64,000 nt of DNA, taken from the NCBI GenBank assembly GCA_947456245.1, contig CANGPS010000002.1, forward strand, positions 1-64,000, written 5' to 3'. This DNA is from Acidimicrobiaceae bacterium (GTDB taxonomy: Bacteria; Actinomycetota; Acidimicrobiia; Acidimicrobiales; RAAP-2). The position numbers and the translations under genes were made by a program. A model generated the notes under the pieces. The model had not been told where the DNA came from. It worked only from the letters and a program-made list of their open reading frames with translations, and did not search any database. Shown piece by piece: positions 27,246 to 33,567 of this stretch. Within the stretch, counting starts at the first letter, position 1. Each line of letters starts with the position of its first letter.

Positions 27246-28016
27246 TCAGGGGAGGTCGACGTCGATCACGACCGGCGCATGGTCCGAGGGCTTGACCCCC
27301 TTGCGGGCGTCACGATCCACGAAGGCCCCGGTGACGAGCGGAGACAGCGCAGGCGACGTGAGCGCGAGGTCGATGCGCATCCCATGTCCCTTGTGGAAGG
27401 CGCCGTCGCGGTAGTCCCACCAGGAGTAGACCCCGCCCTCTGGGTGGAACCGGACGAACACGTCCTCATAGCCGAGGGCGAGGACGGCCTCGATGGCGGC
27501 TCGCTCCGGTCGGCTGACGTGGGTCATGCCCTCGAGTGCCGCCATGTCCCAGACGTCGGCGTCAGCCGGTGCCACGTTGAAGTCGCCGAGCGCCACCACC
27601 AGGGCATCGGGGGGCTGCTCGGCCAACCGAGAGCGCAGCCGATCCAGCCAGGCCAGCTTGCCAACGTAGTGCTCGGAGTCGAGCGTCCGACCATTGGGCA
27701 CGTAGCAGCTCATCACCCGGACGCCGGCGCAGGTGGCCGCGATCAGTCGGGCGCCCTGCTCGTCCTCGGGCGAACCGAGGCCGACCTCGACCTCCTCGAG
27801 GCCCACGCGGCTCACGATGGCCACCCCGTTCCACCGCCCCTCGCCATGGTGAACCGAGGTGTAGCCCGCCTCCTCGAGGTCAGCGAAGGGGAACTTCTCG
27901 TCAGCCTGCTTGGTCTCCTGGAGGCACAGCACGTCGGGCTGCATCGTCGACAGCCAGTCCAGGACCCGAGGGAGTCGGACGTTCATCGAGTTGACGTTCC
28001 AGGTGGCGATCCGCAT
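27246..28016 (-). CDS. xthA: Exodeoxyribonuclease III
   Basis: 256 residues. MRIATWNVNSMNVRLPRVLD, catalytic Glu in CLQETKQADEKFP, GDFNVAPADADVWD and the C-terminal SDHAPVVIDV are the exonuclease III/AP endonuclease motifs. Mg2+-dependent nuclease for base excision repair. Its ATG overlaps the stop of the FabZ-like gene by one base (TGATG), so it is probably translated by reinitiation. It is convergent with the ThDP gene, 18 nt apart. Confidence 0.94.
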   Translation of the reverse strand: MRIATWNVNSMNVRLPRVLDWLSTMQPDVLCLQETKQADEKFPFADLEEAGYTSVHHGEGRWNGVAIVSRVGLEEVEVGLGSPEDEQGARLIAATCAGVRVMSCYVPNGRTLDSEHYVGKLAWLDRLRSRLAEQPPDALVVALGDFNVAPADADVWDMAALEGMTHVSRPERAAIEAVLALGYEDVFVRFHPEGGVYSWWDYRDGAFHKGHGMRIDLALTSPALSPLVTGAFVDRDARKGVKPSDHAPVVIDVDLP

Positions 28017-28441
28017 CAGCGGGGCTCACCGTCCACGATGACGAAGAGCAGCTGGGCCTCGCATGCGATCCCACCCCCCACGGTCGCCCGGCCGAGGCCC
28101 TTCCCGGCTCGGGCGCTGAGCTGGGTCACCGTCAGCTCGAGGTCGAGGCGCTCGCCCGGCACCACCTGGCGTCGGAATCGCGCGCGCTCGATGCCACCGA
28201 AGAGGGGCAGCTTCCCGGCGTAGCGCTCGTCGGAGAGCACGGCCGTGGCGCCCACCTGGGCCAACGCCTCGACCATGAGCACACCCGGCAGGGTCGGGCG
28301 ACCAGGGAAGTGCCCGGCGAAGAACCACTCGTCACCCGTCAGGTTCCAGTGCCCCCTGGCGCTCTCACCGGGGACGATCTCGTCGATCTCATCGACGAGC
28401 AGGAAGGGCGGACGGTGGGCGATCAACTCGGTCGGGTCCAC
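28016..28441 (-). CDS. fabZ: FabZ-like 3-hydroxyacyl-ACP dehydratase
   Basis: 141 residues from GTG 28441, giving the normal FabZ length; AGGGG lies 4 nt upstream and the track ORF to 28519 overextends. Active-site motif WFFAGHFPGRPTLPGVLMVE with catalytic His and Glu, preceded by HRPPFLLVDEI, is the FabZ hallmark. Dehydrates 3-hydroxyacyl-ACP in type II fatty acid synthesis. The remote location from fab genes is unusual; a specialised dehydratase is possible. It follows the NYN ribonuclease-like gene by 7 nt and overlaps xthA by one base. Confidence 0.9.
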   Translation of the reverse strand: MDPTELIAHRPPFLLVDEIDEIVPGESARGHWNLTGDEWFFAGHFPGRPTLPGVLMVEALAQVGATAVLSDERYAGKLPLFGGIERARFRRQVVPGERLDLELTVTQLSARAGKGLGRATVGGGIACEAQLLFVIVDGEPR

Positions 28442-28448
28442 AGCGCCC

Positions 28449-29855
28449 CTAGGCCAGCTCGACCTCGGCCACCCGGCGGGCGGCGTCGACGGCCACGACG
28501 CGGAAGGATCGCTCATCACGACGCGACAAGACGTCCCGGGCCTTGGTCGGCGGCGGATCCCCCAGGCGCTCCGTCGGGGCGTAGCAGCGGAAGACCCGAC
28601 CCTCGTCGAGGGCCACGTCCACCATCGCCCCGTGGCTCGTGAACGCCGACACGGTGGCGCTGATCACCGCGCCCACCTCGTGGGTGGCGATGAACGAGAG
28701 GAAGTCGAGCGGCTCGTTGATCGGGGTTCCCTTGGCGGCCATCGCGTCCCCGCCACGACCCCCGCCGGCGGCCGTCTTCTTGGCAGGCGCCTTCGTGGCG
28801 GACGCGGCCTTCTTCCCAGCCTTCTTCGCCGGGGTGGCCGCGGGTGCGTCGTCCTCGGTGGCGTCGACCGGAGCTGACCCTGTGCCGCTTCCCCGACCTC
28901 GCCCACCGCGGCTCCGTCGGCGACGGGGACGAGCGTCCGGCTCGGGCTCGGGATCGGGCTCGGGCTCGGGCGTCGCTGCCGCCGTCCTGATGGCCTCCGC
29001 GTCCTCTCCGGAGAGCGACGACGAGTGGCTGGCCACGACGACGCCGATCCCCGCTGCGAGCGCCTTGATCGCTCCGTTGTCGAGCTCGAGCTCCTTGGCC
29101 AGGGCATAGGCCCTGACCTTGGGCAGCGGCACCGGCTCGGCGGCCTTCTGCCTGATGGCCTCGACCTGCTCGGCCGTCAGCGTGGAGGAGTGGCTCGGGA
29201 AGGTGATCTTGATGGATCCGGCGAGGTCCTTGAGCCCCTTGGTGTCAAGCCCGAGCTCCTTGGCCAGGGCATAGGCCCGCATCGGCTCGGCCGGGACGGG
29301 GACCAGCTCCTTCGGGGTGAGCACATCGCCCACCTTCGGCGTGGAGCCGTCGGGCCGGGTCACGGCGAGCTTGGCCGCGGGGACCGTCTTGGGAGCGTTG
29401 CGCCGGACGGCGGCGGTGGCGGCCCGGCTCTTCGGGCCCCGCACCGGGTTGCGCGGCGTGAAGATCCACCCCACGCCCGGCACCGGCTTGCCACCGACCA
29501 GGCGACCCTCCTCGAAGAGCCACGGGTGCTCGCCGTGGAACTCCTGGAACGAGTCGTTCGAGAGCACGATCCCACCGGTGCGCTTGGCGATCTTGAGCAC
29601 GAAGGCATCGCCACGCCCCACCGTCCCTGCGGGTGGGGAGACCACCTCCCCGTTGAGCTCGGCCTCCTTCAGTCGATCGCGGTCCTTCGCGTCGATGCGG
29701 TGCTCGAACGTCGCGTCCACCACCACGACGACGTCCGCGTCGGGATGCTCTTCGAGGTAGGCGGTGACGGCGTCCTCGAGCTGCGACAGGCTCGGGAGCG
29801 TTCGGCCCTCGGTGGCCAGGTTCGATCCGTCGACGACGACGTGGGTGCTTGCCAT
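28449..29855 (-). CDS. NYN (Zc3h12a-like) ribonuclease domain fused to two IF2_N repeats and a C-terminal S1-like domain
   Basis: 468 residues from ATG 29855, with GAGGAG 3 nt upstream. Residues 1-115: NYN/PIN-like fold, HVVVDGSNLATEG, VVVVDATFEHRID and IVLSNDSFQEF with the Asp residues expected for Mg2+-dependent RNA cleavage. Residues about 200-250 and 260-310: two repeats RAYALAKELGLDTKGLKDLA and RAYALAKELELDNGAIKALA, each ending in a SHSS-LT or SHSSSLS segment, the IF2 N-terminal domain pattern. Then an acidic/basic linker with PEPEPDPEPEP and lysine/alanine stretches, and an S1-like beta barrel (VISATVSAFTSHGAMVDVAL). RNA cleavage is predicted, not shown. Confidence 0.85.
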   Translation of the reverse strand: MASTHVVVDGSNLATEGRTLPSLSQLEDAVTAYLEEHPDADVVVVVDATFEHRIDAKDRDRLKEAELNGEVVSPPAGTVGRGDAFVLKIAKRTGGIVLSNDSFQEFHGEHPWLFEEGRLVGGKPVPGVGWIFTPRNPVRGPKSRAATAAVRRNAPKTVPAAKLAVTRPDGSTPKVGDVLTPKELVPVPAEPMRAYALAKELGLDTKGLKDLAGSIKITFPSHSSTLTAEQVEAIRQKAAEPVPLPKVRAYALAKELELDNGAIKALAAGIGVVVASHSSSLSGEDAEAIRTAAATPEPEPDPEPEPDARPRRRRSRGGRGRGSGTGSAPVDATEDDAPAATPAKKAGKKAASATKAPAKKTAAGGGRGGDAMAAKGTPINEPLDFLSFIATHEVGAVISATVSAFTSHGAMVDVALDEGRVFRCYAPTERLGDPPPTKARDVLSRRDERSFRVVAVDAARRVAEVELA

Positions 29856-29913
29856 GGGCTCCTCAGTCAACCATCTGCGGGCCCCGCCATCGGCCACCCT
29901 GCCCCATGCGCCC

Positions 29914-32900
29914 TCACAGGTCGGCGAAGGCACGCCGGAGGAGGTCCTCCTGCTCGGCCCGGTGGACGAGGCCGCTCCCGGTGGCCGGGCTGGCGCTCTC
30001 GGCCCGTGCCACGTGCCGCAGGACCAACCGATCGCGCATCTCGCGGTGGAACTGGTGGTGGGCGAACGGCCACGCCCCCATGTTCTTGGGCTCCTCCTGC
30101 AGCCACACGAGCTCGGTCGCCTGCTGGTAGCGACCGATGACCTCCTCGATCTGCTCGTCGGGCCACGGGTAGAGCTGCTCGACCCGGACGATGGCCGTAG
30201 CGGCCGCCACCGGAATGCCGTCGGCCGCCAGCTCGGCGCGGCGGGCCATGGCCTCGTGCGCCACCTTGCCCGAGGCCATGATGATCCGCCGCACGGCCGC
30301 CGGATCGGCGTCGAGGTCGTCGAGCACCGGGAGGAAGGCGCCCCCGGCCAGCTCGTCGAGGCTCGAGCGCGACGCCTCGGCCCGGAGCATCGACTTCGGC
30401 GTCATGACGACGAGCGGGGTCAGGCGCTCGCGTCGGACCTGCGCACGGAGAAGGTGGAAATACTGCGCCGCCGTGGTGGGCACCACGACCCGGAGGTTGT
30501 TGCGGGCGCACAGCGTGAGGAACCGCTCGATGCGAGCACTCGAGTGCTCGGGCCCCTGTCCCTCGTACCCGTGGGGCAGGAGCATGACCAGGCTGGCGAT
30601 CTGCCCCCACTTGTCCTCAGCGGCCACCAGGAAGTTGTCGATGATGATCTCGGCGCCGTTGACGAAGTCCCCGAACTGGGCCTCCCACATCGTGAGCGAC
30701 TCGGGCGACTCGACCGAGTAGCCGTACTCGAAGCCGAGGACGGCGTACTCGCTCAGCAGCGTGTCGCGGATCGTGAAGCGGGCGGGGTCGGTGCCGAGGT
30801 TGGCGAGCGGAACCCACTCCTCGCCGTCGGCGTGGTCGACCAGCACCCCGTGGCGCTGGCTGAACGTCCCGCGCCGGGTGTCCTCACCCGTGAGCCGCAC
30901 ATTGGTCCCCTCGATGAGGAGCGACCCCATGGCGAGCGCCTCGGCCAGCGACCAGTCGACGCTGCCCTCGGCGACCATGGTCCGGCGCTGCTCGAACTGA
31001 CGGGCCAGCTTCGGGTGCAGGGTGAACCCGTCCGGCACCGAGACGGTGGCCTCGGCGATGCGCAACAGGACGGCCTCCGGGACGCCCGTCATCGGCGCCG
31101 GGGGGTCGGCGGGCACCTCATGGAGCGGCGGGGAGGTGAGCACCGGTGCCTCACGCTCTCGGACCTCGTCGAGCACCGCCTGGAGGCGAGCACCGAAGGC
31201 ATCGAGCGCTGCCTCGGCCTGCTCGATCGTCAGGTCGCCGCGACGCACGAGGGTCTCGGTGTAGAGCTTGCGCACGCTGCGCATCTCCTCGATCGTGCGG
31301 TACATCAGCGGCTGGGTGTAGCTCGGGTCGTCACCCTCGTTGTGGCCGTGCCGTCGATAGCAGACCAGGTCGATCACCACGTCCTTGTGGAAGCGCTCCC
31401 GGAAGGCGAACGCCAGGCGCGCCGCTCGCACGCAGGCTTCTGGGTCGTCGCCGTTCACGTGGAAGATCGGCGCCTGGACCATCTTGGCCACGTCAGTCGA
31501 GTAGTAGCTCGACCGCGCTGCCGAGGGGCTGGTCGTGAACCCGACCTGGTTGTTGATCACCACGTGGACGCTGCCGCCCGTTCGGTAGCCCGACAGCTCC
31601 GAGAGGTTCAGCGTCTCGGCCACGATCCCCTGCCCGGCGAACGCCGCATCCCCGTGGACCAGGATGGCCAGCACCGGGAAGTCGTCGACACGGGTGCGGA
31701 AGGCCTCCGGGGTGCCATCGGTGGGCGGAGCGAGCTGGTCCTGCCTCGCCCGGGCCATGCCCTCGACCACGGGGTTGACCGCCTCGAGGTGCGAGGGGTT
31801 CGAGGCCATCGTCACCGGCATGGGCAGCCCTGAGAGGCCCACCAGCGTGCCGCTGGCGCCCTTGTGGTACTTCACGTCGCCCGAGCCCTGGACGCTCTCG
31901 GGGTCGAGGTTCCCCTCGAACTCCGAGAAGATCTCGCCGTAGGACTTGCCGACGATGTTCGCCAAGAGGTTGAGGCGACCACGGTGCGCCGTGCCGAGGT
32001 AGACCGCCTTGGTCCCGGCGACCGCCGCCGCGTCGATGAGAGCGTCGAGCGCCACGACCGTGGACTCCGCCCCCTCGAGTCCGAACCGCTTCTGGCCCAC
32101 GTACCGGGTGTGCAGGAACCGCTCGAAGACCTCGGCCGCGTTCAGGCGGTCGAGGATGTGACGCTGCTCCTCGACGCTCATCGTGGCGTCTCCGCCCTCG
32201 ACCTGCGATTGGATCCAGGCCTTCTGCTCTGGGTCCTGGATGTGCATGTACTCGATGCCGAGCGTGCGGCAGTAGGCGTTGCGGAGGATCGAGAGGATCT
32301 CCTCGAGCGTCGCCGTCGGCGCCTCGGTGAGGCCGTCGGTCAGGAAGGTCCGCGGCAGGTCCCAGATCGTCAGGCCGTAGGTCAGGGGGTCGAGCTCTGG
32401 GTGCAGCTGCGGGGGTTCCGCCGAAAGCGGGTCGAGGTCGGCGTCGAGGTGCCCACGGACCCGGTACATGTTGATCAAGCTGTGGACCTTGAGCTGCTTG
32501 GTGATCTGCTCGAGGTCCCCTGATTCCGTCGACTCGGCGGAATTGGAGTCCTTGCGCCACTGCGAGGGCTCGTAGGGGATGCCGAGCGAGGAGAAGACCT
32601 CGTCGTAGAACCCGTGGCCACCCGTGAGCCGCTCGGCCACGTTCTTGAGGAACAGACCAGATTCGGCACCCTGGATGATCCTGTGGTCATAGGTCGAGGT
32701 GATGGTGAGGACCTTCCCGAGCCCGAGGTCCGCCAGCATCCTGGGGTCGGCGGCCTCGAAGCCCGCCGGCCAGCCGATGGAGCCCACGCCGATGATGGCG
32801 CCCTGTCCCGGCATCAGCCTCGGCACCGACTGCACGGTGCCGAGCGTCCCCGGATTGGTCAGCGAGATCGTCGAGCCGGCGAAGTCATCCGGTCCGACGG

Positions 32901-33567
32901 TCCCTGCGTGGACCTTGCGCACGAGATCCTCGTAGGCGAGCAGGAAGGTCCGGAAGTCCATGGTGTCGGCGGCTCTGATGCATGGGACCATCAGGTTGCG
33001 GGTGCCATCAGCCTTCTCGACGTCGACGGCCAGTCCGAGACCGACATGGTCCGGTCGCAGGACTCCGGGAGTGCCCCGGTCATCGACCGCCTCGACGAAG
33101 CTGGCGTTCATGGCCGGGATGTCTGAGAGCGCTCGGACGATGGCGAAACCGATCAGGTGGGTGAAGCTGACCTTCATGCCCGTCGTCCGCACGAGCTGGT
33201 CGTTCAGGGCGGCTCGGTTGACCTCGAGCAGGCGGGCGGGGACGGTTCGGACCGAGGTGGCGGTCGGCACGCCGAGGCTGGCCACCATGTTGGTCACGAT
33301 CCTGGCGGCGGCACCTCGCAGCGGCGTGGCATCCGGGACCGGCGTCGCCACCGGGGCGCTGGCCGGCGTCGATGGTGCCGGGGCGGGCGGCGGCTGGGAC
33401 TGCGGGCGGTAGTCGACGAAGAACTCACGCCAGCTCTCCGACACCGAGGCCGGGTCGGCCAGGAAGCATCGGTACATGTCATCGACCAGCCAGGCGTTTG
33501 GACCGAAGGACCCGCCAGCAGCCGTCCCCGAGCGGCGGCTGGGACCAGAACTTCCCTGCGGTGCCAT
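29914..33567 (-). CDS. kgd: Multifunctional 2-oxoglutarate decarboxylase/dehydrogenase E1 with fused succinyltransferase domain (Kgd/OdhA type)
   Basis: 1217 residues, the size of mycobacterial Kgd. N-terminal NAWLVDDMYRCFLADPASVS, Pro/Ala linker, then an E2-like catalytic domain (about 85-320) with the active-site TYDHRIIQGAESGLFL, and the E1 ThDP part from about 340 (THRGRLNLLAN, GDAAFAGQGIVAETLNLS, RRHGHNEGDDPSYTQP). It decarboxylates 2-oxoglutarate in the TCA cycle; the fused layout is typical of actinobacteria. The start ATG 33567 has TAGGCT 6 nt upstream, a predicted leaderless promoter. Divergent from a hydrolase gene that has its own TANNNT. Confidence 0.96.
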   Translation of the reverse strand: MAPQGSSGPSRRSGTAAGGSFGPNAWLVDDMYRCFLADPASVSESWREFFVDYRPQSQPPPAPAPSTPASAPVATPVPDATPLRGAAARIVTNMVASLGVPTATSVRTVPARLLEVNRAALNDQLVRTTGMKVSFTHLIGFAIVRALSDIPAMNASFVEAVDDRGTPGVLRPDHVGLGLAVDVEKADGTRNLMVPCIRAADTMDFRTFLLAYEDLVRKVHAGTVGPDDFAGSTISLTNPGTLGTVQSVPRLMPGQGAIIGVGSIGWPAGFEAADPRMLADLGLGKVLTITSTYDHRIIQGAESGLFLKNVAERLTGGHGFYDEVFSSLGIPYEPSQWRKDSNSAESTESGDLEQITKQLKVHSLINMYRVRGHLDADLDPLSAEPPQLHPELDPLTYGLTIWDLPRTFLTDGLTEAPTATLEEILSILRNAYCRTLGIEYMHIQDPEQKAWIQSQVEGGDATMSVEEQRHILDRLNAAEVFERFLHTRYVGQKRFGLEGAESTVVALDALIDAAAVAGTKAVYLGTAHRGRLNLLANIVGKSYGEIFSEFEGNLDPESVQGSGDVKYHKGASGTLVGLSGLPMPVTMASNPSHLEAVNPVVEGMARARQDQLAPPTDGTPEAFRTRVDDFPVLAILVHGDAAFAGQGIVAETLNLSELSGYRTGGSVHVVINNQVGFTTSPSAARSSYYSTDVAKMVQAPIFHVNGDDPEACVRAARLAFAFRERFHKDVVIDLVCYRRHGHNEGDDPSYTQPLMYRTIEEMRSVRKLYTETLVRRGDLTIEQAEAALDAFGARLQAVLDEVREREAPVLTSPPLHEVPADPPAPMTGVPEAVLLRIAEATVSVPDGFTLHPKLARQFEQRRTMVAEGSVDWSLAEALAMGSLLIEGTNVRLTGEDTRRGTFSQRHGVLVDHADGEEWVPLANLGTDPARFTIRDTLLSEYAVLGFEYGYSVESPESLTMWEAQFGDFVNGAEIIIDNFLVAAEDKWGQIASLVMLLPHGYEGQGPEHSSARIERFLTLCARNNLRVVVPTTAAQYFHLLRAQVRRERLTPLVVMTPKSMLRAEASRSSLDELAGGAFLPVLDDLDADPAAVRRIIMASGKVAHEAMARRAELAADGIPVAAATAIVRVEQLYPWPDEQIEEVIGRYQQATELVWLQEEPKNMGAWPFAHHQFHREMRDRLVLRHVARAESASPATGSGLVHRAEQEDLLRRAFADL

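Follow-up and report, generated by a model that had tools for sequence, protein, structure and literature searches.

The locus and its genes

The window (the whole stretch of DNA that was analysed, 64,000 nucleotides) carries on its minus strand a gene whose product joins an NYN domain, two IF2_N repeats, a linker and an S1 domain, here called NYN-S1. The gene and its neighbours are as follows.

29914..33567, minus strand: kgd-type multifunctional 2-oxoglutarate dehydrogenase/decarboxylase, the upstream neighbour (Pfam; same strand, 58-bp gap)
28449..29855, minus strand: coding sequence of 468 aa, NYN - IF2_N - IF2_N - linker - S1 (an ATG-started frame of 468 codons that matches these coordinates exactly)
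28016..28441, minus strand: FabA/FabZ-like dehydratase (PF07977, E 1.8e-25; start inferred from sequence, 7 bp past the NYN stop)
27246..28016, minus strand: exonuclease III/AP-endonuclease-like gene, last in the run of four (PF03372)

The hexamer GAGGAG is found just upstream of the ATG of the NYN-S1 gene (at about 29859-29864), and GC at the third codon position reaches 90%. The frame is open in the orthologues, whose proteins are 41-81% identical, and is therefore not a product of chance. Across 27246-33567 the gene lies between kgd and the FabA/FabZ-like gene, as it does in most of the order.

The domains and the nuclease site

The initial annotation had proposed, from the sequence of the window, an endoribonuclease-type NYN domain followed by two IF2_N repeats, a charged linker and an S1-like barrel. 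This order is borne out by profiles, by an AlphaFold model with a PDB fold search and by the conservation of the catalytic set, which all agree, and both the nuclease fold of the N-terminal domain and the identity of the repeats have survived profile search. The features of the nuclease domain are listed first.

29424..29846, minus strand: NYN / Zc3h12a-type PIN-like ribonuclease domain, residues 4-144 (PF11977, PDB folds, family profile)
29829..29831, minus strand: D9 in the motif DGSN (with N12 at 29820-29822), which the alignment places on the Regnase-1 strand IDGSN; invariant
29715..29717, minus strand: D47 in VVVDATF, an extra invariant acidic residue of the NYN-S1 family (invariance)
29607..29609, minus strand: D83 in RGDAF, matched in the alignment by D226 of Regnase-1, the second Asp of DDRF; invariant
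29553..29555, minus strand: D101 in SNDSFQEF, aligned with D244 in SNDTYRDL of Regnase-1; invariant

The Pfam model PF11977 (RNase_Zc3h12a) covers residues 4-111 with E 7e-10 and 39.3 bits against a curated cut-off of 23, and it matches all 17 members of the family alignment. A sequence search of the PDB gives Regnase-1, ZC3H12B/C and KHNYN as relatives of this domain, and the NYN-S1 family profile reaches ZC3H12A with E 8e-6. The AlphaFold model, which was built with 17 sequences, is of high confidence for most of the N-terminal domain and the whole C-terminal domain and poor in the middle; the best Foldseek matches of its N-terminal part are the PIN domains of Regnase/ZC3H12C (5h9v, 7ndk, 3v34; E about 1e-6). 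The conserved Asp set of the NYN site, which had been put forward as a check, was found intact: D9, N12, D83 and D101, together with D47, are invariant in 20 diverse family members, and the position of Regnase-1 D225 is occupied by Gly in the alignment. In Regnase-1, D226 and D244 are catalytic and their double mutation abolishes activity (PMC4772114). Since every domain assignment stands and no residue of the catalytic set varies, the NYN-S1 protein is likely to be an endoribonuclease, with an activity that would be metal-dependent.

Compared with Regnase-1/ZC3H12A, ZC3H12C and KHNYN, the protein has in common the NYN/PIN-like domain, the catalytic set (DGSN, D83, D101) and the fusion of a nuclease to RNA-binding modules. 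It differs from them in being bacterial, in carrying an S1 domain and a basic linker rather than CCCH or KH modules, in having GD where the DD pair would stand, and in its IF2_N repeats. Membership of the Rae1/YacP family, also bacterial NYN-fold endoribonucleases and in that case linked to translation, was rejected, as PF05991 (NYN_YacP) has no match in the protein or in the genome; Rae1/YacP belongs to a different NYN family and has neither S1 nor IF2_N.

The remainder of the protein is made up of the following parts.

29145..29288, minus strand: IF2_N repeat 1, about residues 190-237, N1-type (PF04760 23 bits; N1 model 37.0, N2 model -0.6 bits)
28986..29120, minus strand: IF2_N repeat 2, residues 246-290, N1-type (PF04760 28.8 bits; N1 model 37.0, N2 model -0.3 bits)
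28722..28967, minus strand: disordered linker, residues 297-378, an EP repeat and then R/K/A/G-rich (pLDDT <50 for most of 308-372; composition)
28452..28721, minus strand: S1 (OB-fold) domain, residues 379-468 (pLDDT about 97; bS1 structures)

Between the NYN domain and the first repeat, residues 162-181 (29313-29372) hold a motif, KLAV.RPDGS.PK.GDV, that is conserved in many family members, including some without IF2_N.

The IF2_N module is best known from the translation initiation factor IF2, which has two such subdomains, N1 and N2. On the whole protein PF04760 gives two matches with E 1.5e-11 and 44.3 bits; relative to the curated cut-off of 25.3 bits, repeat 2 lies above and repeat 1 just below in the whole-genome search. 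Elsewhere in the genome the module occurs only in IF2 itself (twice, on contig C4). Models of N1 and N2 were built from the IF2 of Acidimicrobiia, and neither recognises the other subdomain; as the scores above are about zero for N2, the 30S-docking N2 type was rejected for both repeats. The IF2_N segment of the AlphaFold model is of moderate confidence only, because the relatives used in the structure prediction were without IF2_N, and for this segment it is the sequence profiles that support the fold. From IF2 the protein differs in being without a GTPase, an N2 and initiator-tRNA domains: by Pfam only PF11977 and PF04760 are significant, and neither the GTPase nor the C-terminal tRNA-binding domains of IF2 are found.

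The C-terminal domain is modelled as a helix and a five-stranded barrel (pLDDT about 97) that superposes on bS1 of M. tuberculosis with 1.7 A rmsd over 85 columns. The Pfam S1 model (PF00575) matches 13/17 family members, with the window protein itself below threshold, and the family profile matches chains of ribosomal protein S1 up to E 1e-27 (for E. coli bS1, summed over domains). Along E. coli bS1 this profile scores 17-23 bits on stretches that we take to be D3-D6, 9 bits on D2, and has no match on D1. In bS1, ribosome anchoring falls to D1-D2 and mRNA binding to D3-D6. Being closest to D3-D6 in sequence, the S1 domain of NYN-S1 seems suited to holding RNA rather than to anchoring on the ribosome; it shares the fold of bS1 and differs from it in standing alone, rather than as one of four to six S1 domains, and in being fused to a nuclease.

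The linker is Lys/Ala-rich across the family, with great variation in length and sequence. Histone H1-like Lys/Ala repeats, likewise of greatly varying length, are seen in other family members (loci L023, L025, L017, L008), either in the linker or in a tail after S1.

An order-wide family with a lineage-specific IF2_N pair

Matches to the NYN-S1 family were found in 59 of the 61 relatives examined, all of the same order, Acidimicrobiales (one of the 59, G056, being a weak match that spans the IF2_N region only), and the gene is single-copy in nearly every genome. It adjoins kgd in most of them, usually with a FabA/FabZ-like and then an exonuclease III-like gene on the other side. Outside the class, no full-length match was obtained in 297 Actinomycetota genomes that sample the phylum evenly; matches there are made solely through the S1 domain of other proteins, presumably bS1. 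All this suggests a housekeeping gene passed on by vertical descent, and the enzyme is probably a core RNase of the Acidimicrobiales, which are bacteria of soil and water. The family has apparently not been described before.

NYN domains are also known in CRISPR-associated RNases (PMC11346440), and a toxin or defence effector would be another way to read the nuclease. This is very improbable and was rejected: the gene has a single copy, its vertical conservation next to kgd extends over the order, in core-genome synteny, the PADLOC match is negligible (E 0.04), and no antitoxin or CRISPR-like genes are present among the flanking genes examined.

The IF2_N pair has a much narrower distribution than the family. 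It is present in 8/8 genomes of two genera (six of the genus of the window and both of a related genus), and the other 73 of the 81 genomes have no IF2_N beyond the two matches accounted for by IF2. Most orthologues being without it, the pair was rejected as part of the family core. In a tree of the NYN domain all eight genomes with the pair cluster together (support 80/92), and a single change is found in 81% of bootstrap trees; the pair was probably gained once, in the genus of the window and one related genus.

As to their source, the repeats match the N1 of IF2 from the same genomes at about 44% identity, and all NYN-borne repeats form one group in the tree, apart from those of IF2, with support 100/99. 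Both observations led to the rejection of a recent copy of the organism's own IF2, and they also indicate that the repeats may have a partner other than that of IF2 N1. In two species repeat 1 and repeat 2 are 75-77% identical to each other, which suggests recent duplication or homogenisation there.

A further explanation takes IF2_N for a generic structural spacer, or for an element of weak self-association or nucleic-acid binding, within a linker that evolves fast; the repeats would have no specific partner, and the enzyme would be an ordinary NYN-S1 nuclease of mRNA decay. In its favour, the linker varies widely in sequence and length, most members do without IF2_N, the repeats drift, with the second nearly lost to recognition in the related genus (5-10 bits with the N1 model), and the N-terminal region of IF2, disordered part included, is able to drive phase separation (PMC11838494). 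Against it, both repeats retain most of their LAKEL and SHSS cores in the six species of the genus to which the window belongs, and the independent fusions of N1 alone to RNase E (below) suggest a portable function. On balance such a spacer is unlikely.

IF2_N on unrelated endoribonucleases and its possible partners

An absence of IF2_N from RNase E was rejected: it was seen in 0/30 loci read with short flanks, but reading deeper N-terminal flanks in another order brought the fusion to light. An N1-type IF2_N lies near the N-terminus in 16 of 45 actinobacterial RNase E/G loci (E 1e-8 to 4e-3; L162, L172, L175 and L184 among them), the 45 loci coming nearly all from one actinobacterial order, that of genome G110 and not that of the window; an N2-type IF2_N is found in 0/45. 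By Pfam, 4/5 of the checked RNase E loci with IF2_N are above cut-off and in frame with RNase E/G. In G110 itself, PF04760, PF10150 (RNase E/G) and an S1 domain share one open frame of 1382 aa (L145:901-5046), and in several RNase E/G proteins the S1 domain follows IF2_N and precedes the catalytic domain. In the genome of the window, RNase E/G is encoded on contig C4 and has no IF2_N.

The two groups of enzymes are alike in combining an endoribonuclease with N1-type IF2_N and, in several RNase E/G, with S1; their catalytic domains are unrelated (PF10150 has no match in the window protein by Pfam), and RNase E mostly carries a single IF2_N near the N-terminus. Judged from sequence, N1-type IF2_N has been joined independently to two unrelated endoribonucleases, NYN-S1 and RNase E. 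Signal peptidase I (Peptidase_S26) of two actinobacterial genomes also has the module within its N-terminal part (L146:1066-2274 and L147:470-2047, one of the two matches being just below cut-off), which makes it a mobile module that is not specific to nucleases.

The claim that no characterised bacterial protein has this layout fits the papers searched, where neither NYN-S1 proteins nor IF2_N on ribonucleases were found described (subscription titles lay mostly outside the search, so that this is weak evidence); the combination of IF2_N with an endoribonuclease, however, has its parallel in actinobacterial RNase E.

The reading that we prefer, with a probability of about one half, is a chromosomally encoded housekeeping metal-dependent endoribonuclease in which RNA is held by S1 and the IF2_N pair docks to the machinery of transcription or translation initiation. 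The Regnase-type NYN domain would cut single-stranded RNA at the D9/N12/D83/D101 site, with the RNA held by the C-terminal S1 domain and the basic flexible linker. The two N1-type repeats, inserted into the linker in the two carrier genera, would bring the enzyme to whatever IF2 N1 binds, either an early transcription-translation factor such as NusA or the 30S initiation complex, so that cleavage would fall mainly on mRNAs that are nascent or at initiation. In E. coli, N1 binds NusA directly, as seen by pull-down, in-cell cross-linking and tracking, and this needs the C-terminal part of NusA with its AR repeats (PMC12297416). The NusA of the organism (408 aa) has an acidic tail only and no AR-repeat match, which weakens NusA as the partner. 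The occurrence of IF2_N on signal peptidases and its absence from most of the NYN-S1 family also speak against this reading.

The initial annotation had suggested a ribosome-associated RNase, for example in quality control. Of this, the endoribonuclease is likely, given the domains and the invariant site; association with the ribosome is not supported by N1-type repeats and an S1 domain like D3-D6 of bS1. In its fuller form, IF2_N and S1 would place the NYN domain on the 30S/70S in the manner of Rae1/YacP. The nearest functional precedent for an NYN enzyme linked to translation is Rae1/YacP of Bacillus subtilis, an NYN-fold, ribosome-dependent endoribonuclease whose mRNA cleavage takes place in the A site of the ribosome (PMC11346440, PMC6613710); N1 speeds the recruitment of IF2 to 30S complexes in E. 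coli (preprint PMC13345285); the S1 domain is bS1-like; and with no YacP in the genome such a niche could be open. It is N2, however, that docks on h16 of the 16S rRNA in the 30S subunit (preprint PMC13345285), and with repeats of the N1 and not the N2 type, ribosome binding does not follow directly from IF2_N. The closeness of the S1 domain to mRNA-binding domains rather than D1-D2 also speaks against this reading, as do neighbour genes that are metabolic rather than translational, and it is rather unlikely.

The architecture, in which RNA-binding modules are joined to an NYN RNase, is of a known kind; the point of interest is the recurrent capture of N1 by unrelated endoribonucleases, at a time when the role of IF2 N1 is only now being worked out. 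Tentatively, N1-type IF2_N may be a portable module for docking to the early gene-expression machinery, whether NusA/RNA polymerase or the 30S initiation complex, captured independently by NYN-S1 and RNase E and targeting cleavage to nascent or initiating mRNAs. How much this matters depends on the binding partner of IF2_N: if N1 does dock these enzymes on RNA polymerase or on ribosomes at initiation, bacterial mRNA decay would be physically linked with transcription and translation, in a way that is testable.
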